Origin: Pegea sp. RAD2-039
Taxonomy: Eukaryota; Chordata; Thaliacea; Salpida; Salpidae
DNA: 64,000 nucleotides
NCBI GenBank assembly: GCA_034620365.1
Contig: JAQGEQ010000186.1
Coordinates: 1,426,001-1,490,000, forward strand
Reading direction: 5' to 3'
The notes under the pieces were generated by a model. It did not search any database. It was not told where the DNA came from and was given only the letters and a program-made list of their open reading frames with translations. Below, in pieces: positions 10,656 through 61,150 of this stretch (position 1 is the first letter of the stretch; the number at the start of each line of letters is the position of its first letter). The translations under genes and the position numbers were made by a program.

Positions 10656-11654
10656 CTAAGATACAATGGTACTAAGATAATTAGTTGATCTTCTCTTGCG
10701 TAGAGTATTTGATCTATGAGAAAAACCTTTGATAAAGTTGAATTTATAGTCTGCAAACGTATAAAAAATTGAAGAAATGCTCAAAAAAAGATTGACATCA
10801 TAAATCATTACTGAATAGATATGAGGAGAAATAAATGAAAGAAAAAACTCAGTTACAACCAAGCATGTAGTAGACGAAATAACAATTACCAAAGTGCTAA
10901 TTACAGAAAGTCGAAGAGTTTTGTTAAGTGTATCAGAAGTTGCAGAAGTTTTAGTTTGCTCTTTGATGCTTATAGAAGCTTTAGTTGGTATAACATGTTT
11001 TTTCAAAGGATATATAAACAAACAAAGTAGTGAAAGATGACAAGCAGAGATCACAAAGTAACCAATAGCTACTGCCTTACGCTTTGGTTTATTTCTAATG
11101 CAACCGTACTCAGTCAAAGAAAAGACATCTTCTATAAAGTAATTGATAATAAACGAAGCACAAACACATCCATTAAACAAAATGAATGATATCCAACTAA
11201 TTATACTTGCTACTGTTGTGTAAAGATGTCTTATCATAGGATTATTATAAACAATATAATTTCTAAACCATAAAAAGTTGAAAACAAGTGAAATGCAAAT
11301 ACAATGTACAGTATGCAACATATTTGTATAAAACTTACATATGTTTTTATGTTTTTTATCGAACACTTCAAGAAATAAAAAACCATTTGATAAAAGGTAT
11401 CTAATAAGAATTAAAGTTAGTAGAACTTGAAGAATATTCCATAAAATTTTAAGTTTCACATTATCTTTAGTAGTCAGTTGTTGCATTTTCATCTTCTTGT
11501 AATTTTTAAATGATATCAAGAAACAAATAATGAAAATTATTAAGATCAAAAGAACAACTTGTGGAAGAATCCATAAGTCATCAAACAAATTATGTTGATA
11601 ATTGGTAAGACTTGAGTTGAATGATAAACGGTCATCAGTAAAGTTGTTTTTCAT
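10656..11654 (-). CDS. Orphan seven-transmembrane receptor, paralog 1
   Basis: An intronless 332-residue protein with seven hydrophobic spans, paralogous along its whole length to the gene at 15791. Shared blocks are LWILPQVVL at the start of TM1, LISFKNYKKMKMQQL in loop 1, WFRNYIVY at the end of TM3, EYGCI in extracellular loop 2, FIYPLKKH after TM5 and FYTFADYKF at the end of TM7. The Cys before TM3 (NICKFY) and the loop-2 Cys could form the usual GPCR disulphide. RNYIVY sits where DRYxxV lies in rhodopsin-family receptors. The N terminus has NFT and NSS sequons. I chose the Met at 11654 because the paralog starts at the same point; an in-frame ATG at 11741 would add 29 residues. Ligand and family are unknown. 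Confidence 0.75.
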   Translation of the reverse strand: MKNNFTDDRLSFNSSLTNYQHNLFDDLWILPQVVLLILIIFIICFLISFKNYKKMKMQQLTTKDNVKLKILWNILQVLLTLILIRYLLSNGFLFLEVFDKKHKNICKFYTNMLHTVHCICISLVFNFLWFRNYIVYNNPMIRHLYTTVASIISWISFILFNGCVCASFIINYFIEDVFSLTEYGCIRNKPKRKAVAIGYFVISACHLSLLCLFIYPLKKHVIPTKASISIKEQTKTSATSDTLNKTLRLSVISTLVIVISSTTCLVVTEFFLSFISPHIYSVMIYDVNLFLSISSIFYTFADYKFNFIKGFSHRSNTLRKRRSTNYLSTIVS

Positions 11655-13547
11655 TTCGCTAACACTATAAAGTATTTGAACCTCCTTTATATAACAAATA
11701 TTGATTAATAAACTTAATTTATAATTTATTAAAATATACATTTATCAAATCGTCAATTTTTTGAAGCAAGTTTTTTTAGGTTTCTTTTATATGCAAGGTA
11801 TACTTATTAGTAACCATACTTATATAGAAACTTTTTTTTTATAACTTGTTAATCTTTGTGAAAAGTAGTTTAAAGACAACCTTTCTTTGAATCAATTTTT
11901 AGCTGTATAAACTAATCTATTAAAAAAGAAAACAATTTTTATGCAAGTTTTTTTAGCAATATCATGCGCTAATAAAAAACTTAGATATGAAATCAAACTA
12001 ACCAGATATTTAAAGTTATTTTGATCAAATTAAAACGGAAATACTAATTTACTAAAATGAAAACTTTCGAAAACTGAACATCTCGTAGCTTATTACTTGA
12101 CGTTTGTACTTGTACTAGTAATTGAAAATGAAAGTCTAGCACCTAAAATAGTTTATCGAAAAAAGTTTTTGGGGTTTTTTTGAAGTTTAAATATTTCGTC
12201 AAAAAATAAAATTTAAAAATATTTTTAATCTTGAGGTAGTTTTTAATTTGAGTCTCTTAAAATAAAATTATTTCTAAGATTAAAAAAAAAACATTGTATA
12301 AGAAGATTCTTAATAAAATTTCTTTTGTAATTTACGTAAATTGTGATTCGAGATTAAAGACTTTCATCTCATCATCGTGATTTTTAAATCTTTTTCGTAA
12401 AATTTAGGATTCTTGTAAATAGTCTTGTATTTTGTTCTTACATGAAAAAATATTAGAAAATTAATTTGGAACTAAATGACCAATTTGTTGTCAATAGTTT
12501 TTTTTTAATTTCACACAAACTTGTCTTTTTAAACTATTTTAAAAATATGAAAACAACAAATTTATTTCCAAAGGTATGTACGAAACTTTAGATATATAAT
12601 AAAACATTTTAAATTTTTATAAGATCAGTTTATAATCACTTAACTAGAAAAGCTTAAAAGTTAAACCTCCTAAAAAGAAGTTTGAAAATATCTTCTTCAC
12701 TGGATAACTGCAAATGTAAATGTTTTAGTTGCATTAAAAGATAAAAGTTATTTTTCTGTTTATAACATAAATTTACTGAAAACTATAAGCTTATTTTATA
12801 ACTAACTTTTAGTTTGGATATTTATTATTAAGTTTTATATTATTTTAGTTAAATGAATTTAATTTTTATTTGCTTCAAAATATAAATTAATATTTATTTA
12901 ACTATATATACATACATTTTCTTTCTAAAGTATCTTTAAAAATTGAAATTCGTTTATTTTAAATAAAAATAATTCAAGTTTTTATAGAAGAACCCCTTTT
13001 AAAAATAAAACTATTTTTTGAAAAATTTTGCAAAAATAAATTAAACGATTTTTTTTTATAATAGTTCCAAATTTAAATCTCTAAAATCAAATTTTATAAA
13101 ATTATAAAATTTTAAAGAAGTTTATTTAAATATTTGAAAAATGTTCTTTAAAAATACTTGAAAGTTCTAATTAAAAATTGTTAGTTTGAAACTTTATTTT
13201 TAGGCCTTAAAACTGTTAGTCATTTATTAAATAATTTACAAATATTTAAGGTTTTCAATTCTTAGCATATAAACTCAAATATCTATATATTTTTATCATC
13301 ATTTCAGTGACTAACTTACTTATTTCGTGCAATACTCCATACCATGGATTCCCTATAAGTAAAATCATTAATGTAATTTTTAAATGTCATCTAAGACTAC
13401 TGAAGGTTACCAAAAAAAATTCTTGAAAAAATTATGATTATTTATTAACCAAAAATTTGTTTCAAAATAAATTGATTAAAAAAATTAATAGGTTTAACTT
13501 TATTACGGGAAACCACAAAACAAGTAATACAGTTGTGATCTTTTAAA
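11655..13547. other. AT-rich region between the paralogous receptors, part 1
   Basis: No gene is seen. Sequence is AT-rich with many poly-A/T runs. It presumably includes the promoter of the minus-strand receptor, but no motif is distinguishable. Confidence 0.45.
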
Positions 13548-13939: not shown

Positions 13940-15790
13940 ATATCCAGATTCAGAAAACATAAACTAATTATACTTATCAATTAATTATCTCAATAGATAT
14001 CATATAAATTAATTATCAATTAATATATCAATTAACTTTTCAATTAATTGACAATTTATATAAGTTGTTCAAACCACTTTTCATTACTCTGAGTGAAGAT
14101 ATTTAATTTTTTGTTTATTTAACTTGAGGTAAGAAATATACTTTTAGTTTCTTGTTGTATTTACTATGAAATAATAAAATGAATTTTAAAGATTAAATCT
14201 ATGAGTTGGAAATCAATTATTATTTCAATTAAAAAATATTACAAAAATTATTATTTTTCTACTTTATACAGACATCTAACCTCAGCTGTTTTCTTGGATT
14301 AATTTAAAAAAATCATGTATTAGCAAAACGTTTTAAAACCTTAAACGAAAGAATTTTAATTTTAAAGAATTGATCTCGATGACGTTCTACAAAAAATTAT
14401 TGAAATCAAAATGAATTATAAAGATTAACTTTAAACACAAATTGCTTAAAGTTCTTTAAAAAATTTGTTTCATATTTATCAAAAAAAAGAAGAAGAAGGC
14501 TTGTTTCTAAATACTTCTACTATGTTTATATAATCTTTAAAATAGTTTTGTTTTGGTGTAAACCAACTATTGTTCTTCAATTTTATGCATTTAACAAAGC
14601 TTAGTGAAAGAAACAGTAGACTAAGAAAATTATTTTAAAGTTATTCACTTGATAATATGATCTTTCTTAAAAATTTTTTATTTATTTTATTTACTTTGAT
14701 ATTAAATAAGATCAAATTTACTTTTATGTCAGACAATGAGGATTTTATTTTTCGCTTTCTGGTCTTATTTGCCATTTTATTACAGAGGTTAGTTCTGTAA
14801 TTAAAGATTTTTACTAAATTCGGATTATATCACATAAGTTTCAAAAATAATTGTTTCGTTTTAATTATAATTTCTAATCTTAGTATTTTCTTCTTTTGAA
14901 TTCTTTTTCATAAAAATCATAAATTGAGTTCTATAATTACTATTTCATATACTTGAGATCATTTAAGATAAAACTTTTAGTAAACAAGTTGAAGTTGAAG
15001 TTTAGTTTCTAGTTTCATATTTTCTAATATTTTAGGAGTTGAAACTGCAACGTAATTCAAAAAAACTTTAGATCAACAAGTTTTTTGCAAACTTCCAAAT
15101 ATTTATAACAATTATAATTATTGTTCGCAGTGAATTTCTGTTATTTCATATATGTACTTGGTTTATATTAACAAAGTTTTGAATTAGTTTTTCAATATTA
15201 ATTTAAAAATAAATAAACTAAAAAAACGAAGCAATGTATAACTGTTTGTTATTTGCATTCTTAACCATTCAACTTACAAACATTTTTAATAAATTGTTCT
15301 TTAAGATTTACAATCAAATTTTTTTCAACTTTCAATAGATAAAAAAATATTTTCGATTAAGTTATACAAATATTTACATAAGCTGAGGCTATATTATCAT
15401 TATGTCTAGTTTTGATATTTAGCTTTTTTAAATGAGTATTTATTTAATTTTAATGCATTCCTTTATAACTGGTTTTGTTTAAGATTCTTAACTTTCATCT
15501 ATATAAAATAGTTCTTATTTTAACAGCAACAGTAATATTCAAAGTTTTTATTTTAATGATAATTTCTACTAACTTTAATGCTAGTGTAAGTAATTGTTAT
15601 TCACACTTTTTCTAAGATTGAATAAATTTCCCTGTATAAATTTAACGTTTGCATTCTGTATGAATTATTAATGATTATTATTAATAGATATGTATAATAA
15701 AAGTTATTAATGTAGTTAGTAATAAACAATTTCATAGTTTCAAACAAACAACAAAAAAGTTTTTTTTCAGTTTTATAATTGAAGTAAGGA
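13940..15790. other. AT-rich region between the paralogous receptors, part 2
   Basis: No gene is supported. Just beyond the SINE head (13975-14055) is a run of ATTAATT-type short repeats (tcaattaattatc, atcaattaat). The rest is AT-rich spacer and the 5' flank of the plus-strand receptor. Confidence 0.45.
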
Positions 15791-16777
15791 ATGGAAAGAA
15801 CATTTACTGATCAAAACTTATCAAGTAACTTAAGTTTTACTGATCATCAACACTCAGTGTTGAAAGATTTATGGATTCTTCCTCAAGTTGTTCTTCCAAT
15901 CCTTTCTATTTCCGTTATCTGCTTGATGATCTCATTTAACAACTATAAAAGGATGAAAATGCGACAACTGGCCACTAGAAATGATAAGAAGCTGAAAATG
16001 TTGTGGGCAATTCTTAAAGTCTTACTTTATTTGGTTCTATTGAAGTCCTTTGCTTCGATTGGTTTGTTACTTGTTGGAAGATTCTATCATAAAAATGGAA
16101 TAGTTTGTGAAATATATATCGATGCCTTGTTTACTTTACGTGGTTTTTGTTGTTCTTTTGGTTTCAATTTTGTATGGCTAAGAAACTATATTGTTTATAA
16201 AAGTCCACTGTTAAAGCATCTTTACACACCAATAATAAAATTGACTAGTTTGTTCACAGTTATTTTGTTTAATACAATGGTTGTATTTTCATTTGTTTTA
16301 GCTTACCTAGCAGATAATTATTCCATGACTGAATATGGTTGTGTTGCAAGAAGAAAACAGCATGTTGCTGCATATATGGGTTACATTCTTATCTTCATAT
16401 GTCTTACTTTACTCTTTGGCTTATTCCTATATCCGTTAAAAATACATCTTAAGCAGATAAAGGTCTCTAATGAAAATCTAACTAGAAGTTCTGCAGTTTC
16501 TGATAAGCTGAAAAATACTATTCGTATTTCTACAATTAGCTCATTTATAATGTTTACTTCTTTTATAGTTTGTTGGATTTTTACTGAGTTTTGTCTTCCT
16601 ATGATAACTCCTAAAATTTATACAATAATGTTGTATGATATCACTCTTTTTATAAACGTTTATTCAGTTTTTTATACTTTTTTGGATTACAAATTTAGTT
16701 TAACTAGAGATTTTCGAGCATTTGTAAATAGTGAATACAAGCACCAAGTAATAGATTATCAAACAAGCCGAGCATAA
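15791..16777 (+). CDS. Orphan seven-transmembrane receptor, paralog 2
   Basis: An intronless 328-residue seven-span protein, about half identical to the gene at 10656-11654 by eye. Approximate spans: TM1 27-49, TM2 72-95, TM3 109-136, TM4 143-173, TM5 193-217, TM6 240-268, TM7 272-297. The loop-2 Cys (YGCV) and the Cys before TM3 (VCEIY) are retained. TM3 ends in WLRNYIVY in place of DRY, and TM7 ends in FYTFLDYKF in place of NPxxY. NLS sequons lie near the N terminus. The ATG at 15791 gives the N terminus MERTFTDQN, matching MKNNFTDDR of the paralog. The absence of introns beside intron-rich neighbours suggests the pair arose from a retrocopy or from an intronless receptor family. Function is unknown. 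Confidence 0.75.
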   Translation: MERTFTDQNLSSNLSFTDHQHSVLKDLWILPQVVLPILSISVICLMISFNNYKRMKMRQLATRNDKKLKMLWAILKVLLYLVLLKSFASIGLLLVGRFYHKNGIVCEIYIDALFTLRGFCCSFGFNFVWLRNYIVYKSPLLKHLYTPIIKLTSLFTVILFNTMVVFSFVLAYLADNYSMTEYGCVARRKQHVAAYMGYILIFICLTLLFGLFLYPLKIHLKQIKVSNENLTRSSAVSDKLKNTIRISTISSFIMFTSFIVCWIFTEFCLPMITPKIYTIMLYDITLFINVYSVFYTFLDYKFSLTRDFRAFVNSEYKHQVIDYQTSRA

Positions 16778-18235: not shown

Positions 18236-21200
18236 AAAATAAACAAACAGATATTTGAGTTAACTGTTTTAGATTTTTATCTAGTATATACTAGTAAAAT
18301 ACGTTTTTATTTGATGCTTGATGTTAGTTACCAATTAAATATTACTTACAAAAGGAAATTTATACATTTTTTTTGTAACATTTACTTAAATTGTGAAAAA
18401 AACTGTTCTTGAGGTGAATTAGTGTTCACGGTTTTCTGATCATAAAAAAATAGATCCTTCCAAGAAATGTTTAAACGAAATTTACTTTTTTATTAAAGTT
18501 GCTAAAGTTAAAAACATTCTTGACTAAAAAAGTCAAACTAGATTAACTTGAATTTGTACATAAATAAACAACAACAAATTATCATCTAATTTGTAATAGA
18601 ATAGTTTTAGAAAAACTGATTTATTTATTATATATAAATATTTGAAAAAGTGTTTATAAATTTCTATTAAATTTTTAAGAAATTTAAATTTTTTAGCAAC
18701 ATTTTTTGATTACCTTTAAAACCAAAAGTGATATCAGACAAAAAATATTTATTTTATTCAGAAATGTTTTAATCTAAATTTATTTCAAATAATTAAAGCA
18801 AATTTTTGATTATACATATTAATTAAAATAAAATTCATTTTTTTAGTTTAACTTGTTGCTTTACTTAAGAATTAAACTCAAATTTGAAGAAATGACAGAT
18901 TTGAAAATATTTCAAATACTTAATTGTAATAAAACTTCAAGGCGTTGATTTAACTTTCGATAAAAATACTTTTATTTTGCTCCAACAAGCATGAAGTGCT
19001 TTTTGACTTGATATATGACAAATTGAAATAACTTAATTTAAATATCCTACATTAAGATAAATATTTTCAAAGAAACATTGATGTGAATATTATAACTTAC
19101 AAAAGAAAATATTATGAAAATATTACTTTGATTTTAACTAAGATATGACAAACAGTAGTTTCGCTATTTCTGTAAAAAGTGACATCATTACTCACAAATA
19201 AAAAACTTGTAACTCAGTATATATACTAATCAGATATCAACTTTCAATACTCTGGCCTCAGTTCAGTTCACGAATGAATCTTTCGCCTTTTACTAAAGAT
19301 TTCCGTGGATTGGGGCAACGCAATGAGTCTTGATTAGTTTTTTGCTGACCTGTAGCTATTCGGCGCGGGTCTTCTTTACTAAAAAATGTTGATATTTACG
19401 CAGCGGGTTTCTGCTTATATTTTGCAGTTGATGTTTCTGTAACCATCGCGTTTGCCGCTATATTTATTTTTGTTGGCAATTATTGTAGATAAGGAAACTT
19501 TGAATTACGTAGTTGAACGAACTTTTGATTCATTGCTTATTATTTAACTTACAACTATTGTTTGCTTTTATAGGTTTTCTGTACACTCTAATCAAGCTGT
19601 GACCATTGACCCTGTAACCTAAACATTCTATCTATCGAGAAGTTGCTTATCAGTTGAAATATATTAGGAAGACTCAAATTAATTTCAAAAGTTTAAGATT
19701 CAGTCATGCTGATATCTTTATACTAATATCGTTGAAGCTATTCGGCGCGGGTTTCCACATGCAGTAAAGTTCAGCTGTAAGTTGATCTAGCAAATAAGAC
19801 TAGTGATGGAAAGCGAACAAAGTTTATACAGACTTTTATGGGTTCATCAAATGAAATGCTGAAAGATTCAGTTATAATTTCTACCTAAGTTACTTCAACT
19901 ACGTTTTTGCAGTAAGTATAATTTATAATCAGAGTTACTATAAACGATAAGTGTAACTGACGGATACTGTAACTTGGAGTACGGATTTCAATTTCGTGCT
20001 GCTGGTTGAAGAAACTCCTTATCACTTTTAATTACTATTATGTATTTTTAATGTTTTAATGACATTTCAAAGCCTAGAGGGTGCTAATGATGTAAATATA
20101 TCACACACCATAAACTCCATTTACAATCTACAAGTGATAAGACCATAAAGTGCCAAGGAAGCAATTTCTTTATGCTGAAATCGGTTTTTTCAGAGTTGTA
20201 AAAATCAGGCAATTAAGAAATTTATTTTATTATGTTTCTAAGAAAATTCGGCATCAATTTTTTATAAGGAATCAATGTACTAATGTGAGAGATCAATTGA
20301 AAAGGTTCAAAGATATTTTTTAGATATCATCTTTATAAGAATATGAAGAAGTAATTTTATTATTTTCATACATTCATTTTTTGCTTAAATTTATTTACAG
20401 TATAAAGTTAGAAGACCAAACTATTTCTACCTTATCTATCAAAACAATATTTTTTGAAGTTATATCGCTAATTTTGAAATCGGAAGATTTCTTAAGTTGA
20501 ATTTTCCTGTTTCAATTTATTTGAAGCTCATGATTTTTTTATCAGATTTTCTTTCTCATAATACAATTCATTATTGCTTCATCTTTTGATCTTTTAACTA
20601 AATTCTTATCTCTTTTACCAATATAAAAGTTTACCATATATCCTATACATCATTTTTTTGTGTTTAATACTTGTCGGTGGTATGCTACTTCATATATTTT
20701 AATTTCCTGTTTTATAAACTTATATATAACATCATAGTTTTCTAAATCTTAATCTATCTGCAAAAATGTTCGACTTTTTCTGCTTATGAAGATTTACGAA
20801 TCAGCTTTTAGCAGAGATTTTCACTTATTTACATGATTCAAATAAAAAAAGTCATCAGAATTCACATCAATTTATACAAGATCTTATAGAGAAGAGGATT
20901 TAAGAAATAATTTATATATTATATTATTATTATTTAAGAAATCTTTGTTATTATCAGATGATAATTTAAACGCTTTTTTTAAACACTAAAAACGCTTTAT
21001 TGTTATCAGTCAGTTTTGTGTAGTGATTTTTCTATCAATTTGAAGCTTTTGAAACTGTTATTATAAAATTAATCAAATATCGTAGAAATTTAGCTGTGGT
21101 GACGTTATCTCTTTCCGTTGCGTTGTCATCATGTTTTTGTGACTTCACGAGTCCAAATCGTTACAGTATGTTCTTTTAATGTCGCAAGAAATAAAGCAAA

Positions 21201-26509: not shown

Positions 26510-29500
26510 ATGATCAAATTTAATTCAAATTCTTTAAAAAAACAGAGTTTTTTAGGAATTGACAAAATGTTTAAATATTTTGTAATATGTCTTTTCATTT
26601 TTCATTCAAATTTTGTTGAAACTTTTTTTCAATTTAATGGGATTGAAGTTTGTAATCTTTTTCACCAATCAAACATGAATCATGTCAGTTGAGATTCTAT
26701 TTGGTGCATTTTCATAGATTTTATTTTCTTCAGCTTGATGGAAAAAAATCTTCATCAAAATCTACTTTTCCAGAAGTGTCTTGCAAAAGAGAAAAATTCT
26801 GGAGGGAAATATTTCGTCAAAACAAGTTTCCAAATGGGTTTTTTGAAATGTTTGTCTGGTGTCAAAATAGCTTCAATTGTTTATAAACTGTTTTTGTTTA
26901 GAAATCTTTCATACAATCAAATAGGTTTTATTGATGAAAATACCTTTGGAAGAAATAAAAGCGTTTTAGAAAGAATTAAAAAATTGTTAGTTTTTATTGA
27001 AATTCTTTTTGTAAACAATTTTGATTTCTAAAAAATTGCTTTTATTAAAAATATTTAATCATTTTAAACTTTGAATGATAAAGTTGAAGATGATTTATTT
27101 CAAAGTAATCTTTTTCAGGGACCTTTCTTTTAATAACATTGGAAGATTAGAAAATAATTCTTTTTCATCTTTTACAAATTTACTTCAACTGTAAGTTTGA
27201 AAAAATAAATTTATAATTTCGGGTTTTATTTTTATTTTTTTATTGAAGGAATCTTACAAATAACAAAATAATCAGAATTCCTGACAATACTTTTACTGGT
27301 TTGAATTCATTAAAAAAATTGTAAGTTTAAAAAGTTCAAAAAATCAAAAAAATTAAAAAAAAATTTTTCAGGTTTTTGAAGTCAAATCAAATCTCAGTTT
27401 TGTTGAAAAATTCTTTTCAAAATCTTTCTTCTTTGGAACATTTGTGAGATATTTTAATAAAAATATATTTTTTGTTTCATCTTGATGTTTCCAGAGATTT
27501 TTCTGACAATCCAATCATTTGTAATTGTCTCATTAAAGACTTTATTAAATGGAAAAGATTAATGAAAAAGAAGAAGAAAAAAATTCGAATTTTAGGAAAA
27601 TGTTTTTACCCAAACGAAAAAAGACGAAATTTAATTGTTGATCTAAAAAGCAGAAAGCTCAACTGTAGTGAGTTATAAAAGTCACGTGGTTATACTTTGA
27701 TGTCACGTGGTTGTGCCTCGATGTCACGTGGTTGTATCTTGTAGTCAAGTGGTAGACATCTTCATTATTTGCAGATTCTATTTTGACTGATGTTCCATTT
27801 AAGCTTTCACCATCAAAATCTCAAATTGTTTTCGAAGGAGACTCCATCACTTTAGGATGTGAAGCTATCAATCTTCAAAATTCAAAAGTATTTTTCTCAG
27901 ATCTTTAAATTTTCGAAAAATTTCACTTTTTAATTTTTAGCTACAATGGAGTTTAAACAATGAATTGATAGGAAACGAAATCAAAGAATCTGACTCTGTT
28001 GGGATTATTTCAAACTATTTTCATTTATCAAATATCACTCAAAATCATTCAGGTTTCAACTTTCATCTCAATTAATTCATCTATCAACAAATATTTCAGG
28101 AATTTGGAAATGTTTGGCAACTTCCAATTACTCGGCTGTATCACGTGAGATTACATTATCAGTTATCAAATCTTCAGCTAAATATTGTGAATCTGATGAG
28201 GAAGATTCAGATAAGGGATTTTTTAAGTGGCATCAGACTGTTTCTGATTTAACTTCACAAGTTTCTTGTTCATTTTGTGAAGTTAGTTTTGAAATGAAAA
28301 TTTTGTTTAGATAACTTCACAACGATTTTCTAGGAATCTGATTGTTTTGCAAATCGTAAATGTGAAAACGGAGATTGGAAACCAGCAAATTATCAAAAAT
28401 GTTTATATATTGACGAAGACTCCAGAAAAATTCATGTTAGTAACTGGTTGCTAGGTAGTTGCTAAGTAGTGCTCGCTGCTAGATGGTTATTGGTTGCTAA
28501 GTAGTTCTCTTTGCTATGTGGTTATTGGTTGCTAAGTAGTGCTCGTTGCTAGGTGGTTATTGGTTGCTAAGTAGTGCTCGTTGCTAGGTGGTTATTGGTT
28601 GCTAAGTATTACTTGTTGCTAAATAGTACTCGTTGCTAGATGGTTATTGGTTGCTAAGTAGTACTCGTTGCTATGTGGTTATTGGTGGCTAAGTATTACT
28701 CGTTGCTATGTCGTTATTGGTTGCTAAGTAGTACTCGTTGCTATGTGGTTATTGGTTGCTAAGTAGTACTTGTTGCTATGCGATTATTGGTTGCTAAGTA
28801 GTACTCTTTGCTATGTGGTTATTGGTTGCTAAGTAGTGCTCGTTGCTAGGTGGTTATTGGTTGCTAAGTACTACTCGTTGCTATGTAGTTATTGGTTGCT
28901 AAGTATTACTTGTTGCTAAATAGTACTCTTTGCTATGTGGTTATTGGTTGCTAAGTAGTACTCGTTGCTATGCGATTATTGGTTGCTAAGTAGTACTCTT
29001 TGCTATGTGGTTATTGGTTGCTAAGTAGTGCTCGTTGCTAGGTGGTTATTGGTTGCTGAGTAGTGCTTGTTGCTATGTGGTTATTGGTTGTTAAGTAGTG
29101 CTCGTTGCTATGTAGTTATTGGTTGCTAAGTAATGCTCGTTGCTATGTAGTTATTGGTTGCTAAGTAGTACTCGTTGCTATGTAGTTATTGGTTGCTAAG
29201 TAATGCTCGTTGCTATGTAGTTATTGGTTGCTAAGTAGTGCTTGTTGCTATGCGGTTATTGATTGTCAAGTACCTACAAGTTGTTTTAAGAAGTTTTTTT
29301 TTCAGAAAATTGTTTCCAACATAAGTAATAAAGAAAAATGTATGAAAGGAATTCGACAAATAAATTCTCAAATTAAATTTACTAACTTCACAATTTTTCC
29401 TATTATTCATCAATTTTATCATCAATGTTTACTTCATCTCAAAAACTCAACAATTGAACAAGTTAGTTTGTCTCTATGACCTAATCTGCTGCATCGTTGA

Positions 29501-32500
29501 TGATGTCATTTCTTAAATCATCAATGACGTCATTTTTTAAATTGACAATGACGTCATATGTCCTTTTTTCAGAACGAATCGTGGAGAAATTTTTTATCAG
29601 AGTTTTTATCATTTTTTTCTCAAATTCTTCAAATTTTTCCTTTAAATAGAAATGACTCGAAACTTTTATCGAATCTCACCGAAGATTCGTTCGATTTAAT
29701 CGAAAATATAATTTTTCAAACTTCGAATTTACTTCCGGATACAAACTATTTCAAAATTCTTCAAGTTTGTTCAAAAGTTCCGTTTTTTTTCGAAAAAAAA
29801 AAAATGAATTGTTTACAGAAATCGGAAAATTTGAATATTTCGTTGATTAGTGTTTCCAATTCGGAAAATGAAATTTCGGTTTGTGATTTTTTCGAAAAGA
29901 TTGAAATTTGCCGCCAAGTTTCCAAAATGGCTTTTTTAAATGTTGGTTTGAATCAGTTTATGCAAATTAGCTGGTTAATTTAACTATTTTTATATTCAGC
30001 ATTCCTCAGTAGTTTTATTTCCAGTGAAATCAACTAATTTGCATAAAATCGCAGTTTCAATTGCAATTTTCAAGTAAGCGCTAGCTGGCATTAAAAGTAG
30101 TTTTTCGAAAACTTTTTTTACAGAAATCCAAATCTTTTTACAAATTCGAAAATCGAATTTAAAACTATAAAAAGTTTCAACAATTCTCTTCAAAGTTCAA
30201 ATCTTCAAACTTCAAGTTGGAGTCCTCAGAAACTTCTTCTTATCTCTTCAATTTATTCGATTAATTTGATCAACAAATCTGAGAATATCAATCTTTCATT
30301 TGCTGCAGTTTTTCCAACTTCCAAACAAGGTCTTGATCCTTATTTTTATCTTCTCATCTTTTTTAATCCTTTTTTTAATCTTTTATTCATCTTGGTCTTC
30401 ACCCTGATCTTAATTTTTATATTTTAGTGGCTTCTTGTGATCATAAATTTGAGATTTGGGTTTGGAATGATTCTATTTGGAATCCAACTTCATCTGATGT
30501 TTGTTATTTCGACAAACTCCGGTTAAGATCAGATTTGTTGAGATCTTTCACTTGTACAAAACCTGGAACATTTGCAGTAGTCATGGTTAGTTTCTCTAAT
30601 CCTCATCTTTATATAGTCTTCATCTTCCGTTCTTCATCTTCTGTTCTTCATCATCTGACATTCATCTCACCATCTTTATATCCTAGTTTATGTCTTCTGA
30701 TCTTCTTCTTCTGATTTTCTTTCGCTAAATGCCATCTCTTCAACAGGACATAGCAACAGGTGGCAACAAACATCAAATTGTTCCCAATATCTTTGTATGG
30801 GTCTCTTCTTGTCTTTTTGCTGTCTCTCTTCTCATTATAATCAGTACAGAAATCCTCTTCATCAAGTAAGTCTCTTCTTCTAAAGATCATATTTCTTACA
30901 AAGATCCTTCTAAGAGTCCCACATTCACGAGAAAGACAACATATTCAAATCAGCACCTTGCTTCACATGCTGGTTCCAGTTGTAGCTTTCAGTTTTGGTA
31001 TTTGGAGAACCAATCAAATTGTAAGCTTCAAATCCTCAACTTCTTCGTCTAACATCTTTATTTCAGACCCTCTGTTACGTAACCGGTATCGCGATCCACT
31101 ATTCGGTGCTTTCCGTCTTTATGTGGATCGCGATTTCAGTTCGTCTCATCTGTACAGATGTCAACGCTTTTGAAAAATCTTTAGAAGCTCGAAAATCGAA
31201 ACCAATTTTGAGTTTTTATCTTTTGGCTTGTGGACTTCCTGCAATTATTTGTAGCATTACTGCTTCTACTAATATTGATAATTATCTGGGACATCGGAAT
31301 AGATAGTGAGCTCACAAAAGATCTATTTTAATCTGTAGAATACTAAAAATTGAACATTTAAAAAATTTCTTCATTTAAAAATTTATTGTTTTTATTTTAT
31401 CGAAGTAATATTTGTTTATTTGTTAATTATAGTTTTAAAAACAAATATCATTTTTTTAATTAGATGATAAACTGATTACGAATTCCACGAAATAAACAGA
31501 AAACTTAAATTTAACAAAAATTGTTTAAGATTTCAAGATTTTGTTTATATCTTCAAACAATTTAGAAATTGAAAATAATCTGAAATTCGATGTTTAGATA
31601 AACAAAAAACTTGAAACAAATCTATCAATTGTGTTTTGTAGTTGCTGGTTGAACTGGAATACAAGCCTCTACGCCTTTTATCTGCCAATCATGTTCATTG
31701 TTGTGTATTCCTTTTTTAAATATATCAGAACTTTGAATTTAATTTCAAAATCTTACAAGAAAAGTCTGGAGGTTAACACAAACAAAAATATAAACAACTC
31801 CGTTGCGTAAGTTTCCCGGATGATTTGATAAAGATTTGGTTTTGATGATTTTTTATATGAAGTAGTGAAGATGTTCCTTTGAGATTTGGTTTTAATCAAA
31901 TTGATGAAAATTCATCTTGTATTCATCAAAGACGAAATGATCCTCCAAAATTTGTAAGTAGATCTTCTGATCTTCATCAGTTGATCTTCATCTTCTGAAT
32001 CTGTTCATATCTTCAGGGACTTCGAGTACACAGAGATCGCCTTTGTTCAATTCCTCTTCCATTTTTATCTCTGATCATTTTATGGCTCTTCGCTGCTCTC
32101 TCTGTGACGTCATCGTATCCAGGAGACTCTTCGACCCCTAATCAGGTTCTTAACATCTGATCTTGATCCTCATCTCTAACTAATCTTTTACAGACTCCTT
32201 TTTGTTGGAAGATTGCGTCAAATCGAAGCAGGAGCATATTTGAGGTCTTTTTTGGACTCTCGTGTCTTTCAACTTCATTCATCTTCATCTTCCGATTCAT
32301 CTACCTCCAAAATGAAGTGAAGAATAAATTCAGGGACACTTGGAAGATATTTTTCTCCAAAAAAGATGCTTCTGAGCAAGGTGAGATGCAACTGAAAGAA
32401 GATCATCTGAAGATTAAGTTCAAATTTAAAGGGAGAAAGATAAGATGAAGATCAAACTAAGATCAATTTCTATTTTCAGATTCTGAGAATTCTCAAAATG

Positions 32501-34066: not shown

Positions 34067-36048
34067 CTAAGATAATACTATGCTTGTAGTGCTGAGGTGG
34101 CCAATCAAATGGTCTGTACTCATAGATCTAGGAATAAGGCTACTTCCAGAATCTTTAAACTTCATTTCACAGACAGATGACGTCGCCTAAATATATTAAA
34201 AGTCAAAAAATAAAAAAATAAATGAAATAAATCTCAACCTCGAGTTTTAGAGCTCTCTCTTTGTCGAGAAGTTCATTTGGAAAAAGTAAGTTTTGATTTT
34301 CAGCTAAAGTTCTTAAGTCGAAATAGTATTTAGCGTAAACACTGCTAGGTACATTGATGTTGAAGTTGATGTACTCCAAAAACTTCCTTTCCATCTCATT
34401 CCTGGAGTTAAATGATTGATTTAATTGAGATGTTTTCGCAAAGACACACACATACATGCTTTCCACGCTAACATCTTGAAGAATTTGGCAATAGTCAACA
34501 TTCCACACTGCTTGGTCGTCCCAAACCTTTGAAGCTAACAAGATTGCTCCTAAAAGATAGTAGGATCAAAAGATGAAGATCAGGAGATGAGGATCAGCGG
34601 ATGAGGATCAGATGATAAAGAATAAAAGATAAAGATCAAAATATGAAGATCAAAAGGTAAGGTTCAAAGGATAAAGATCATAAGATGAAGATTATAAGAT
34701 GAGGATCAATTGATGAATATTAAGGAATAAAGAATAGGAATGAGAAACAGAAGATGAAGATCAGAAGATGAGGATTAGATGCGGATGAGGTGAAGTACCC
34801 AGAAGAATTCTTTTCCAATTCGCAGAACAAATCAAAATTTCAGCATAACTCAAAAGTCTTTCAACATAAATCTAAAATGAAAAAAAAATCAAAATTTCAT
34901 CAAAATATTGAAAAGTTGAACAAACCAAAGTTACAATCGAACATTCAGCTGTTAGTTGAGCTGCATTAAAGAGAGTTCTGATAAAACGATAAATCTGCCG
35001 GTGGTCTGGTACCAAACAGTCGTAGTCAGCTGGCACCTTCTCCTTCTGTAGAAAATGGAATGTTAATTGACAGTTGATTGGTTGCTAAGTAGTGAGATTA
35101 TTCAATTTCCTGCACAGCTGAACTATTTGAAAATTTCAACTAACTGTTAGCGGGTGAGACTTTTCATCAAATATCTCAGGAGTTAACTTCTCTTTTTCGT
35201 TTGGATGCCTGATATGATAATAAACTGCAAAAGCGACACTAAAAAGCAAAAAGTTTAAAAAGTGAAAACTAAAAAGTTTAAATTTTCAACCATTTAATAG
35301 AAGCTTTGATATTAGGCTGACTAACTGTGCTATCGTCAATGTAAACTGTGGAACAAGAACTCCTGCGTTTGCGAGACACTGAAGATGGAGATACCTGAAA
35401 GAGAAAGATCAGGTGATGAAGATCAGATCAGGAAGATCACAAGTTTAAAATGTAGTTGGTTAGATCAGAAGATTAAATCATTAAAAACAAAAGATAAAGA
35501 TTGTAAGATAAAGATCAAAATAAGATGGATCAAAAGATGAAGATCAGAAGATGAAGATCAGAAGATGAAGATCAAAAGATGAGAGTTAGGAGATGAAGAT
35601 CAGATTATTTAAATAACAAATATTTAATGGAGAAACAAAATTCAGAAACTAACATTCAAAGCACCCGACTTTCTCCTTTCTAAATCTGAAAAATACTTAT
35701 AATTAATAGAAGTAATTTGCATAAAATCCTTAACCTTCAGTGTGACATTTCTGAATAAAGATACTTTGTACTTTGGCATGATCAGAAGGAGTTAAAGTTT
35801 CATCTAGAAAAAAAAATTCAGGTTTTGGAACAAAAGATAAAAAATTTGTTTTAACTTTCGATTCGTTCTCTATCGCTTATATGCTGGAGATTAGAAGGCG
35901 TCAAGATTGCTGTTGAGGGTGTGTACTGTGACGTCTCAGGTCTTGAACTAATTTCTGGAACATGACTGTACGTGTTTCGGTCTTTTCCGGATTTACATTG
36001 TATTGGGGAACTAGCTTGGACACATATTCTACAATTATTGTTACCCAT
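34067..36048 (-). CDS. CCNY: Cyclin Y
   Basis: Cyclin Y is a membrane-anchored cyclin that activates PFTAIRE/PCTAIRE kinases (CDK14/CDK16), including in Wnt co-receptor phosphorylation. Ten exons on the minus strand: 36048-35856, 35803-35735, 35685-35654, 35394-35291, 35238-35145, 35045-34926, 34871-34799, 34549-34456, 34401-34239 and 34186-34067. They give 353 residues (human 341) with consistent phases. The N terminus MGNNNCRIC offers Gly2 for myristoylation and nearby Cys for palmitoylation. Conserved blocks are [26 protein letters not shown], the cyclin box with [39 protein letters not shown] and [17 protein letters not shown], and a tail resembling the human one. The 3' end was placed by that tail similarity and phase. 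Confidence 0.95.
34560..34798 (-). repeat. TTCATCTTCTGATC-type array, cyclin Y intron 7
   Basis: Plus strand shows about fifteen degenerate units such as agatgaagatcag and agatgaggatcag; on the coding strand this is pyrimidine-rich. It fills almost all of the intron 34550-34798. A second array (35400-35610) fills intron 3 of the same gene. Confidence 0.75.
35400..35610 (-). repeat. TTCATCTTCTGATC-type array, cyclin Y intron 3
   Basis: Degenerate tandem units (agatgaagatcagaagatgaagatcag and variants) on the plus strand, antisense to the gene. The array accounts for most of the 259-nt intron. Confidence 0.75.
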
Positions 36049-39696: not shown

Positions 39697-42373
<2,677 letters not shown>

Positions 42374-46995: not shown

Positions 46996-48903
46996 TCACG
47001 TTTTACTTCTCGTGAAGTGTTTACAATTTGAATGTAGACGAATCCAACCTCTACAGATTGATAATTTCTCGTTTGCTTTTGAACATAAATGCTCATCAGA
47101 AGGGCTCTTTTTCAAATCTTCATTTTTCATCAAATAGTCAGCCATAAAATTCCCGTCAATAGTTGAGCATTTAGTTTGATGATCTTCATCTACAATCACT
47201 TCTAATTGAGGTTCATTATATTTACAATATCCGATATGAAAGTATTGATAATAATCATTCCGCCGGCTGAAGTACAGATCAACTTTTGAGGAGCTTTTTG
47301 CATGCTCAGCTTCTGTTGGATTGACAACTTCAGTGACAGAAGGGCAAACTTCAACAGTTGATTCAACATTTTCAATCAAACTGAAAAAAAAAATCATTTA
47401 TCAAATGTATTTTTTAATTGCAAAATGAAAGTTTGTTGATGAGTCACAGTATCATGTTTAAATAAAGTTCAAGATGAATTTGAAACCCCTGGTACCCTAA
47501 TCTGAGAATACTTTGAAGCTCCAGTTCAAATAAGATCTTTGAAAATGAAATCTAAGGTCTTAACTTTCACCTTACAATTTAACTTTCTTTGTAAACACTT
47601 AAAGAAGTGTTAAGAGTTTGTTAAGAAAGTTTTTTAGGTTTTTATCAAACATTTTGTGAAAAAATAGATTGAAATTAATTGACAATTGCTGTGGCAACCT
47701 CAACTTACTTTACAGAACGAGTCCTTCGTTTTTCTTCAACTTTTGAAACATTTTCTTTAGGTTGAGATGGATTATTCAATTCTACTGATTAAAAAAAAAC
47801 TTATGCTTGTTAAGTTGTAACATAATATGTTAGGATAAAAAATATTCCAAAATTAAATGTGAACAATTTACTTAAGTCCCTGGAGTTTGTTCTTAATCTC
47901 ATTTTTCTTTCAAATTTTGTTACAAGTTCTGGCAAAAGAATTCGATAAACCTAAAAAATCAACAAAATAGCAACTCAATTTTTGACAACTCAATTTTTGA
48001 CAACTCCATTATCAAGCATTTCATCAACCACGTCATCAAACACATCATAAACTACGTCATCAAATACGTCATTAACCACATCATCAACTAGGTCATCAAA
48101 TACGTCATCACATACGTCATCAACTACATCATCAAATACGTCATCAACTACGTCATCAACTACATCACCAACTTTATCATCAACTACATCATCAACTATG
48201 TCTTCAAATACATCATCAACTACTTCATCGTTTGCATCATCATTTACCCGATCAGCAACTTCAGGAGTTTCATATTCCATAACACATGCGGGTGAATTAC
48301 CGAAACCTTCCAACTGGCAACGTTGTAGAGGGCTGAGTTGACTATTTATGAATGGGTCAATTTTGGGTGGAAACCCTTCGGGTTTTTCATCTGAAAAATA
48401 TGAATAATCGATCAAAATTTAAGTTTTATAATTGAAGATAAAACAGAATTGTTAAGAAAAAATTGAAAAAGTTTAATTGATTAAAATAGTAAATGACGTC
48501 ATCACCTACTGACCTATATGAGGTAGATGTTTGTTTGAAGCTTGCTGACTGATTGAATGAGAAGACCATGATTTTTTCACACTCTGCTGATTTTCATCTT
48601 TAATCTAACCAATCACAAGCTTGTATTTTATTTACAACAATAAGTTATCATCAGACTAACCTGACTTTCGCATTTTTCAAAACAACTTTCAATTTCCAAC
48701 ACTTCTAGCGTTATCACCTCATTATGACGTAATAAGCAGTGACGTAAGCATTGTGAAAGTTGAGAGTGACAGCTAACGGTGTTTGGCTGATCTTGATAAG
48801 AGCTTTTAATTATTGGAGCAGAGCATCCAAAAGACTTCGTTGTTAAGATGAAGATACAAATTAAAAAGTTAAAGTTTTTTTTATCAATTAAAAAAAATTT
48901 CAT
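46996..48903 (-). CDS. Secreted proprotein with neurotrophin-like C-terminal region
   Basis: Six exons (48903-48661, 48604-48514, 48390-48005, 47950-47872, 47784-47709, 47380-46996) give 419 residues with consistent phases. A signal peptide precedes Cys27. Two CX3C motifs (CLRHC, CFEKC) suggest a small helical hairpin. An acidic VDDV repeat follows at about residues 160-235. KRRTR at 285-289 is a furin-type site, releasing about 130 residues. That part starts VEVCPSVTEVV, has YYQYFHIGYCK 40 residues on, CSTID later, and ends RGWIRLHSNCKHFTRSK. Neurotrophins show the same order: VxVCDSVSxWV, QYFxxxxCK about 43 residues on, CRGID and WRFIRIDTACVCVxSRK. It has six cysteines, but spacing after the second differs and the final CxC is CKH. 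Neurotrophin kinship is an inference; the secreted, processed nature is firmer. The 48005 donor is the weakest junction. Confidence 0.6.
48010..48235 (-). repeat. Coding GTTGATGACGTA-type tandem repeat
   Basis: Inside exon 3 of the secreted proprotein gene. Plus-strand words such as tacgtcatcaac and tacatcatcaaa repeat about 17 times in 12- or 15-nt steps. On the coding strand they read GTT GAT GAT GTA and GAT GAC GTA, giving (V/F)DDV repeats. The unit resembles the TGACGTCA-bearing repeats found in noncoding DNA nearby. Confidence 0.85.
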
Positions 48904-48954
48904 TTTAAAAAAATTTGCTCTTAAATTTTCTGTAAGAAAATGATTAAATTTTAT

Positions 48955-54100: not shown

Positions 54101-57100
54101 AACTTTACGGAGTACAACCATAAAGTTCAAGAAAAATTCAATGTAAAACTACATCACTTGATCTGAAAAGTTGAAACAAGATCAAAGTTTTTTCTAAAAG
54201 TTTGCCACTTGTTTTCAGCATTCTCTTGATTCTATTGTTTAAGCTGCAAGACAGAATTCCAGTCGGATATAAGCTTACTAAAAAACGGTAACTTATTTAT
54301 TCTATATGAACTATTTGAAAATTAATGCGACAAACTATCAATCGTTACAAGACTGAATGATCTCAAATTCAGCAAGGATGCTGGATTTAAAAATTTGCAA
54401 AAGCTACTTAAAGAAAAACATCAACGAAAAACATTCTTCTCAGCGAAAATGTATCAATCAAAGATTTGAAATCAAGAAGTAAACCAAAAATATTTAGAAA
54501 TTGAAGAAGTAGGTGAGATATCAAAAACAAAATGAGAAGAAAATGCTCTCAAAGAGCTTTATCATAGAGCAAGAAATATGTTTTCAAAAGAATTCAACTC
54601 CAACAATTAAATTCAAAATTTAACAGATTAGCAGTTTCGACATTGATGTACGGCTTTGACATCTTTAATCTGAGATTAAATGGAATTAAAAAGGTGGTCA
54701 CAAAGCTGATGAAGGTAATAACAATAAAACAATTGTACGAACCAAAAGCATATGTTTTCTAACTGAATTATAAGTTTGGTTCTTAAGCACGAGGCAAGTA
54801 AGAAGAAGTACTCTAGTACAAAACAAAGTGAAGAGTTTAGAAAAAGAAATTACAGCTACCTAAAGCCACTGAAAAGGCAGCAAAATATCAGTAGAACTTT
54901 GTAAACATGAAAACGATATTACAGAAAGCGCCTTCATCAAGTTTTGAGCGAACGCAAAGTAAAGCCATTTCATGGTAGTTAACTCATCAAAAGAATGAAG
55001 GAGGTCAAAGTTTTTATAGATCACATATAGATAACTTAGCAGTGTACGGCTAAAGACAGAAACAGAAGGACTACTTTTATTGGCAAAAGATCAATCGCTA
55101 CCTACCAAGTCTTCGAAGCAACAATTTCAAAAACTACTCAAGATGACAAACGCAGAATGCGTAAAACCAAACCAGGAACCATCGACCATATCATAAGAAG
55201 GTGTTCGATAATAGCAGCAACAGTTAATCTTTGACACCATAACAAATTAGCCAAGTACCTATACACTAGCACCATTGCAAAGCGACAGGTATACATTGGT
55301 ACGAAAACATTTCCGGACCAGTAATCAAAAATATAAACTTCATAGTACTCTGTGAACTTCGGTATCACTACAAAGCCAACAGACCAGATACTGTTGCAAA
55401 GAGCAAAAGCAATAAAAACTGTTTACTAATAGACGTTGCAGTACCAAGAGACGCAACATCAAGGAATTTGAAAAGAATTCCAAATATAAGAACTTAGAAA
55501 TAAAGCTTGAAAGAGTTTTGAAATTAAAGACTTGATAGTTTTTTCTAGTTGTGACTGGGAATAACATCAAAGAAATTTGAAAATTTTATTGCAATTCAAG
55601 GAGATAAGAATTCAGAGATAGTGTTATTGGGAGCAGCGCGCATACCACAAAAGTTTTAATTCTTAACTGAACTTCTATTAATCTTGCTTACTTCTAATGT
55701 TATCCACGACCATTGGTCCCACCCAGCCCTACTATCTTGAAACATTTTCCTTCTTTTATCTTTCTTGATTTTTATAGAACTGTCAGCCTGAGAAGCCTTG
55801 TTGGTGACTGGCAAGTAGGTTCCTTGTCTTCTAGAAGGAACGCAAATTTAGTCTGACTTACAAAATGATCAAATTATTTAAATTTAAAAATATTTCTCTT
55901 CAGATAATATTTATAAACTTTTATATTTTTAGCATCAAGACCTCTTCCTCCAACTCCGGATGTTGAATATCTCGAATCTAACTGGAAGCTTTCCCTCCCA
56001 CTCTGGGCACCTCCTCCTGTTCCAAAAGGTCCTCCTGACGTCATCAGCAGCGACGAATCCATCGAAGAATCGATCTATTTGCTTCCCGAAGTCCAAATTG
56101 CATCGAGTGTATCAGCAGAACGTCGAACGCTTCCCGGACTTTTAAATCATTCTCCATCTCGGGAAAGTCCTAGTCGATCTGGGAGTAACAAAAGCTCATC
56201 TTCGGACCCTCAAAAGCCCCAAATACCCCAGAAACCTTCTGCTATCGCCAATTCGTTCATATTGTCGCGAAATCAATCTTTCCCAGCTGCTATGAAACCT
56301 CGGATAAAGATGAGGGTTGGAAAGTCCCCAAAGAAACCTAATTTCAAACCTCCTCCTCCGAAAGAGGATCCCAAGAAAGCTCCTCAAATATCAAGAGGTG
56401 AAAAAATTGAATTTAAAAATGAAGTTTTATAATCTCAACGATTTTTTGTTTGATGTAAATATAAAAATTTGATTCAAAAAACTTGAATTACAAGATGATT
56501 GGAATATCATTAAATTGTTGCTGACATTCTAAGTAACAAATTTGATAGAAAATTAGAATGAAAATTTAGATCTTTCTTTCTCGTTTAGTTTTAGAATCAA
56601 AAGTATCCCCTAAAACAAGGACTCCTGAAACGTGGATCCCTGAAACAAAAACACTTTCAGAAATGAAGTCTCCTCCCGCAAGACCTCCACCTCCTTCAGA
56701 ATCCAGCATCAAAAAAGCTCAAATACTAAAAGAAGCAAGAAAAAAGAAGTAAAATTTTCAGAAAGTCTTCTTCTGATCTTCTTCTGATCTTCTTCTGATC
56801 TTCTTCTGATCTTCTTCTGATCTTCTTCTGATCTTCTTCTGATCTTCTTCTGATCTTCTTCTGATCTTCTTCTGATCTTCTTCTGATCTTCTTCTGATCT
56901 TCTTCTGATCTTCTTCTGATCTTCTTCTGATCTTCTTCTGATCTTCTTCTGATCTTCTTCTGATCTTCTTCTGATCTTCTTCTGATCTTCTTCTGATCTT
57001 CTTCTGATCTTCTTCTGATCTTTTACAGGGAGAACTCTTCCCCGATCAACCGTCGTGATCTCAAGCACCAACTACGTAAACACCAATCCTTCAATCACGT

Positions 57101-60904: not shown

Positions 60905-61150
60905 TGAAAGGACTGAAGATGAAGATCAGATAAAAAAATCAGAGTATAAGAAAATCATAAGAAGAAAATATATAGATAAGAATTACATGATAAAGATCAA
61001 AAAGTAAACATCAAAAAGTTACATTTAAGAAATGAAGATCAGAAGATGAAGATCAGAAGATGAGGATTAGAAAACTAAGATTAAAAAATAATGATCATAA
61101 TAATTATATCAGAACATAAAGATCAGAAGATTAAAATTAGATTATTAAGG
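60905..61150 (-). repeat. Degenerate GATGAAGATCAGAA array
   Basis: Plus-strand purine-rich words (gatgaagatcagat, aagatgaagatcagaagatgagg, taaagatcagaagatt), the same family as in the introns of cyclin Y and AP2M1. Here no gene is evident around it, although its presence could mark an unrecognised intron on the minus strand. Confidence 0.6.

Follow-up and report, generated by a model that had tools for sequence, protein, structure and literature searches.

A predicted secreted proprotein of the salp Pegea sp. RAD2-039 with a possible neurotrophin/Spaetzle-type cystine-knot domain

The question raised by this locus is whether a tunicate genome can encode a ligand of the neurotrophin kind. Neurotrophins are described as missing from tunicates and are thought to have been lost (excerpt of PMC2586362). 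Ciona is reported to have no neurotrophin signalling system, and no deuterostome Spaetzle gene had been found at the time of writing (excerpt of PMC2772990). The available parts of PMC3280201 and PMC4812194 contained no mention of tunicate neurotrophins. No report of a tunicate neurotrophin or Spaetzle was found in titles and the beginnings of abstracts, in a search that spanned few subscription journals and used the spelling without the umlaut, and this negative is no proof of novelty. An earlier note had read a minus-strand gene in the window (the whole 64-kb stretch of DNA analysed here, GC content 27.3%) as a divergent neurotrophin-like secreted proprotein.

The gene model showed that six minus-strand exons, from 48903 to 46996, join into 1260 nt, which encode 419 aa and a TGA stop with no internal stop (Table 1). 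All five introns were modelled as GT..AG with consistent phases, and their acceptors were TTAG, TTCAG, TTTAG, ATCAG, and TTCAG. A codon-usage model derived from 2437 codons in six open frames of this genome scored the claimed frame above zero in all six exons; the scored exon limits deviate from the final model by a few bases (25 for exon 3). Scores were below zero in all six frames for 2/5 introns scored. The weak spots were exon 1 (2.2 bits) and exon 4 (3.8 bits); for exon 4, a frame on the plus strand reached 4.6 bits, above the claimed frame. The score of exon 3 is probably inflated by its VDDV repeat. The donor of exon 3 is weak, several in-phase GT alternatives occur inside the repeat between 48223 and 48055, and the position of this donor and of the 3′-end of the exon is uncertain. 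Exon 6 sits within a 133-codon open frame with 27% GC. The six-exon gene that had been proposed joined in frame at the implied length, and its structure is confirmed as far as sequence can tell. The search of the genome (105.7 Mb, 387 contigs) with the candidate matched its own locus only, so that no second copy was found. The TTTTCTTACAG element ahead of the ATG may be a trans-splice acceptor or the acceptor of an intron in the 5′-UTR.

Table 1. Positions of the modelled exons and sequence features of the candidate gene in the window
Feature	Position	Strand	Description
Exon 1	48661..48903	-	start codon, signal-peptide-like N terminus, CX3C-X17-CX3C; donor GTTAGT; best of six frames, +2.2 bits
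Exon 2	48514..48604	-	coding score +7.7 bits; donor GTCAGT
Exon 3	48005..48390	-	acidic prodomain part with VDDV repeat; +59.8 bits; modelled donor GTTGTC
Exon 4	47872..47950	-	coding score +3.8 bits; donor GTAAAT
Exon 5	47709..47784	-	carries the furin-type site; +10.0 bits; donor GTAAGT
Exon 6	46996..47380	-	nearly entire mature Cys-rich domain; TGA at 46998-46996; +27.1 bits
Splice-acceptor-like TTTTCTTACAG	48930..48940	-	ends 26 nt upstream of the ATG
Signal-peptide-like segment MKFFLIDKKNFNFLICIFILTTKSFG	48826..48903	-	cleavage point judged by eye
12-nt tandem repeat, VDDV/FDDV units	48021..48229	-	17.4 copies (TRF)
KRRTR furin-type cleavage site	47717..47731	-	read from sequence

Reading of the deduced protein showed the precursor layout of signal-peptide-like start, prodomain, furin site, and C-terminal domain. 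The CX3C-X17-CX3C segment occupies residues 52-78 and is followed by the acidic VDDV repeat and then by KRRTR, after which 130 residues remain with cysteines at positions 15, 55, 74, 102, 112, and 122. The signal-peptide-like start, KRRTR, and the 130-residue domain fit the secreted-proprotein reading, which is upheld. The other landmarks listed in the earlier note were also recovered: VEVCPSV, QYFHIGYCK, CSTID, WIRLHSNCKH, and the RSKT end in the mature part, an extra Cys before the Trp with loss of the last Cys, and the CX3C pairs and VDDV repeat (12-nt unit × 17.4) in the prodomain. Neither the entire precursor nor exon 1 by itself had a credible Pfam match; a Defensin_2 match on exon 1 (E = 0.18) and a CTP_transf_3 match of the precursor (E = 0.031) were taken as chance. 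The CX3C-X17-CX3C segment (48670-48750, minus strand), which lies in a predicted secreted prodomain, had no credible family match. We take it to resemble the paired CX3C motifs of small Tim chaperones, which are non-secreted proteins.

The C-terminal domain was aligned with six references. C12, Q45, C52, C71, and C119 were invariant in this alignment. Six knot cysteines are common to neurotrophins and Spaetzles (excerpt of PMC2772990). Four of them aligned with all references in the candidate, C99 counts as the fourth knot Cys by hand only (MAFFT leaves it unaligned), and the sixth is replaced by His. An extra Cys lies ten residues ahead of the fifth. Q45 is separated from the second Cys by six residues, as in both families. 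Between the second and third Cys the candidate has 18 residues (NGF 9, Drosophila Spaetzle 6), and between the third and fourth it has 27 (NGF 11, Drosophila Spaetzle 13), so that the loop lengths are unlike those of either family.

All Spaetzles and no neurotrophins carry a Pro near the start, and the diagnostic sites near the end are Trp130 and Ile/Val133 in neurotrophins and an aromatic residue at 133 and the dimer-interface Pro 136 in Spaetzles (excerpt of PMC2772990). The candidate has a Pro nine residues past the first Cys, aligned with the Pro of the Drosophila and Aedes Spaetzles, and we infer that it corresponds to Pro13 of PMC2772990. Positions near the end were mapped by counting from the fifth Cys. 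On this putative mapping, an Ile of the neurotrophin type falls in register at the Ile/Val133 site, a Trp falls two residues nearer the fifth Cys than Trp130, and the Spaetzle aromatic 133 and Pro 136 would be replaced by Ile and His. Read in this way, the domain is a mosaic with a Spaetzle-type Pro, a neurotrophin-type IR.....C end, and a shared Gln.

Compared with the neurotrophins (NGF/BDNF/NT-3/NT-4; PF00243), the candidate shares the VCxSV start, QYF....C, CxxID, the IR.....C end with a nearby Trp, and a furin-type site ahead of the domain. It differs in the extra Cys, the long insertions, the Spaetzle-type Pro, and the missing sixth knot Cys, because of which it cannot be called a neurotrophin. 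Compared with Spaetzle (PF16077; Drosophila Spz C-106), it shares the CxS(I/V)xxxVxP first motif, which lines up with that of the Drosophila protein, the Gln parted from the second Cys by six residues, and a precursor split into exons, whereas it lacks the terminal CCxC and the aromatic and Pro near the end and has the IR.....C end instead. Split precursors are known for sea urchin NT2, the Daphnia neurotrophin, and Spaetzles (excerpt of PMC2772990). The same excerpt describes sea urchin NT2 and acorn worm NTb as deuterostome neurotrophins with an extra Cys adjoining the fifth knot Cys. With their Spaetzle-like features, they are the nearest published analogue by that description, which is the basis of the comparison. 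The candidate resembles sea urchin NT2 in its multi-exon precursor and differs in lacking the full set of six knot cysteines.

Profile searches showed that neither family claims the domain by itself. The only on-topic Pfam match was Spaetzle (PF16077; residues 11-73, E = 0.02), whose 15.9 bits are below the curated cut-off of 27 bits, and NGF (PF00243) gave no match at E ≤ 10. A SUR7 match (E = 0.0022) outranked Spaetzle. SUR7, which we understand to be a membrane-protein family, was dismissed as at odds with a soluble domain that follows a furin cleavage site. None of ten Cys-fixed shuffles of the domain matched Pfam at E ≤ 10. NCBIfam gave no match, and the PDB search gave two matches only (E = 0.33 and 0.75), neither relevant.

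Profiles built from the references were tested against 2000 Cys-fixed shuffles and 892 window ORFs of at least 30 aa; across the three runs HMMER returned scores for 1972, 1983, and 1998 of the shuffles. With the neurotrophin-only profile (four human sequences), the candidate scored 2.7 bits, a value attained by 179/2000 shuffles and surpassed by five other window ORFs. With the Spaetzle-only profile (two sequences), it scored 4.4 bits and was the first ORF by a margin of 0.1 bit, and 54/2000 shuffles scored as high. The joint profile of the four neurotrophins and two Spaetzles gave 16.7 bits for a gene that had been chosen by eye for its neurotrophin likeness before these tests; none of the 2000 shuffles attained that score (the highest had 14.2), and the second-ranked ORF had 5.3. 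The neurotrophin likeness that had been claimed is thus retained at the level of the joint profile, which singles out the domain, and lost at the level of the neurotrophin-only profile. The neurotrophin label was too narrow, since PF00243 gave no match, one knot Cys is missing, and the only on-topic Pfam match was to Spaetzle.

The joint test was repeated with 3000 new Cys-fixed shuffles and 501 other ORFs of at least 60 aa from 182 kb, comprising the window and further genome loci with the candidate's own copy (L001) left out. No shuffle and no ORF scored as high in any of four MAFFT modes, in which the candidate scored 16.7, 16.7, 14.5, and 14.8 bits (two modes were identical). When NGF, BDNF, or NT3 was dropped, the count remained 0/3000 each time; it was 2/3000 without Aedes Spaetzle and 7/3000 without NT4. 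Without Drosophila Spaetzle, the score dropped to 4.7 bits, and 115/3000 shuffles and 2/501 ORFs scored as high. The joint-profile signal therefore beats a composition- and Cys-matched null yet leans on one reference, Drosophila Spaetzle.

Other searches contributed less. Genome-wide searches with PF00243 and PF16077 gave no match, and they do not show absence, as the controls were also silent and PF16077 missed exon 6. BDNF and Drosophila Spaetzle queries gave no match in the genome, in searches run without a positive control. When the profile of the seven-row alignment, candidate included, was searched against the PDB, it found neurotrophins, Spaetzles, and one midkine-type entry (E = 6.7); these matches are due to the six reference rows and are uninformative on the candidate. 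The viral and prokaryote contig collections gave 5 and 55 pattern matches, respectively, with none confirmed as a relative. The single-sequence AlphaFold2 model (pLDDT 33.7) was meaningless.

The genome content agrees with the stated origin. A GH6 cellulase profile matched the genome with 27.5 bits against a cut-off of 27 (E = 1.2e-4), at a locus with a membrane-type stretch ahead of the GH6 part as judged by eye, and a PDB search with the joined GH6 pieces matched Cel6 cellulases (E = 1.8e-8). The tunicate cellulase gene is described as combining a transmembrane part with an extracellular GH6 and as gained from bacteria (excerpt of PMC10986139). A kinase fragment (L029) matched TIE-2 (E = 4e-59), an EGFR-named entry (1.6e-50), and RET (1.3e-39). 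Animal GH6 and TIE kinases point to tunicates. The GH6 cellulase and the TIE-type kinase strongly suggest a tunicate genome. A mitochondrial COX1 query gave no match in the genome.

A Trk-like receptor, for which the earlier note had proposed a search of the same genome, was not recognised among the kinase matches that were read. With the TrkA kinase as query, 127/203 candidates were scored and 44 places had E ≤ 1e-10. No Trk activation-loop sequence was recognised in the 29 of these 44 that were read, and the remaining 15 were all ≤30% identical to the TrkA query. By motif, the kinases that were read are presumably FGFR-, TAM-, DDR-, MET-, INSR-, ROR-, ROS/ALK-, VEGFR/PDGFR-, TIE-, and Eph-type receptors, together with what we take to be Src/Abl/Tec-type and Ser/Thr kinases and a few unplaced ones. 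A Trk kinase is likely absent from the genome, because a true Trk would be expected at the top of the TrkA ranking. A p75 death-domain query gave no match in the genome, in a search run without a positive control. The TIR query found two loci, each also encoding a leucine-rich-repeat C-cap and a transmembrane stretch by eye, and the best match of the first was TLR2 (1.7e-17). Both are likely Toll-like receptor loci.

Several other features were noted. Among the kinases, L002 and L003, which we assign by motifs as FGFR-like and TAM-like, each occupy one open frame without a break (699 and 667 codons), and these two genes are perhaps intronless. The window contains two intronless ORFs for membrane proteins (10656-11741, minus strand; 15788-16777, plus strand) with seven helices by eye and 44% mutual identity, neither with a Pfam match at E ≤ 0.01. 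A query with such an ORF found 58 genome places at E ≤ 0.001, counting its own. Of these, 48 lie in open frames of 296-403 codons, a pattern that suggests an extensive expansion of orphan receptors. Exon-sized ORFs at 26700-32400 (plus strand) resemble, by eye, an adhesion receptor with leucine-rich repeats, Ig, and seven helices. Four of these ORFs were searched and gave nothing credible in Pfam, and among them lies a 35-nt tandem array of 23 copies (28458-29272). The ORF at 34203-34565 (minus strand) had no Pfam match at E ≤ 0.01 and presumably reads like cyclin Y. A U5 spliceosomal RNA gene was found at 19247-19367 (plus strand, 82.2 bits). Scattered arrays built from 14- or 28-nt units resembling GATCAGAAGATGAA, along with one of the 11-nt unit TCTTCTTCTGA, are located at 34564-34779, 35488-35604, 40011-40205, 61028-61131, and 56766-57022; the 11-nt array is perfect across 23 copies and open in three minus-strand frames.

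The strongest competitor is an unrelated, lineage-specific Cys-rich secreted proprotein, such as the precursor of a matrix, mucus, or defence peptide, whose six Cys and short motifs would resemble the references by chance. We regard it as a serious possibility. It is favoured by single-family profiles that do not separate the domain from shuffles and by Pfam scores below the curated cut-offs, by a missing knot Cys and unlike Cys spacing, by a prodomain with CX3C pairs and VDDV repeat that fits no family credibly, by searches of the viral and prokaryote contig collections and of the rest of the genome that found no relatives, and by the weakening of the joint signal without Drosophila Spaetzle. 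Against it speak the full joint-profile score, which 0/3000 Cys-fixed shuffles and 0/501 ORFs matched, and the Gln and diagnostic sites in register.

A fast-evolving true orthologue of the chordate-line neurotrophins that lost its last Cys is very unlikely. The IR.....C end, the RSK tail, the lack of Pro at the Spaetzle dimer site, and the apparent chordate lineage would suit it, but the neurotrophin-only profile gave 2.7 bits, equalled by 179/2000 shuffles, the Pro is of the Spaetzle type, the diagnostic Trp is two residues off register, and neither a Trk (29/44 matches read) nor a p75 death domain (no positive control) was recognised. The least probable reading is that the gene model is wrong, with exon 6 from another transcript or the gene in decay, and that no such proprotein is made. 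The weak donor of exon 3, the low scores of exons 1 and 4, and exon joins drawn from the DNA alone speak for it; six exons that join in frame at GT..AG sites and are free of internal stops, and an exon 6 with +27 bits in its 133-codon, 27%-GC open frame, speak against it.

We tentatively prefer to read the product as a secreted proprotein carrying a divergent cystine-knot ligand of the neurotrophin/Spaetzle superfamily, although our confidence in it stays somewhat short of even. Resemblance at the superfamily level is moderately supported, and membership of either single family is not supported. The signal peptide would direct the precursor into the secretory pathway, and a furin-like protease may cut behind KRRTR and free the 130-residue Cys-rich domain. 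Judging from its anatomy and from the superfamily, this domain would be a disulfide-stabilised and probably dimeric ligand. With the sixth Cys gone, it may form a reduced or rearranged knot or use its extra Cys otherwise. The receptor would more likely be a non-Trk one, given that no Trk kinase was recognised in the 29/44 matches read and that the TIR query led to two putative Toll-like receptor loci; one conjecture is that a Toll-like receptor takes this part. We speculate further that the tunicate keeps a mosaic Spaetzle/neurotrophin ligand whose knot has been remodelled, that this ligand acts independently of Trk, and that Toll-like receptors may sense it, but this extended picture is unlikely on present evidence.

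If the protein is non-homologous, it is one more lineage-specific secreted protein. If a mosaic ligand does survive in this tunicate, it would bear directly on whether neurotrophins and Spaetzles parted before the deuterostomes and on the retention or loss of Trk signalling in chordates. Tunicates would then not have lost the neurotrophin superfamily entirely, and, were Toll-like receptors to sense the ligand, a pairing of the Spaetzle/Toll-like kind would exist in a chordate of the sister group of vertebrates.
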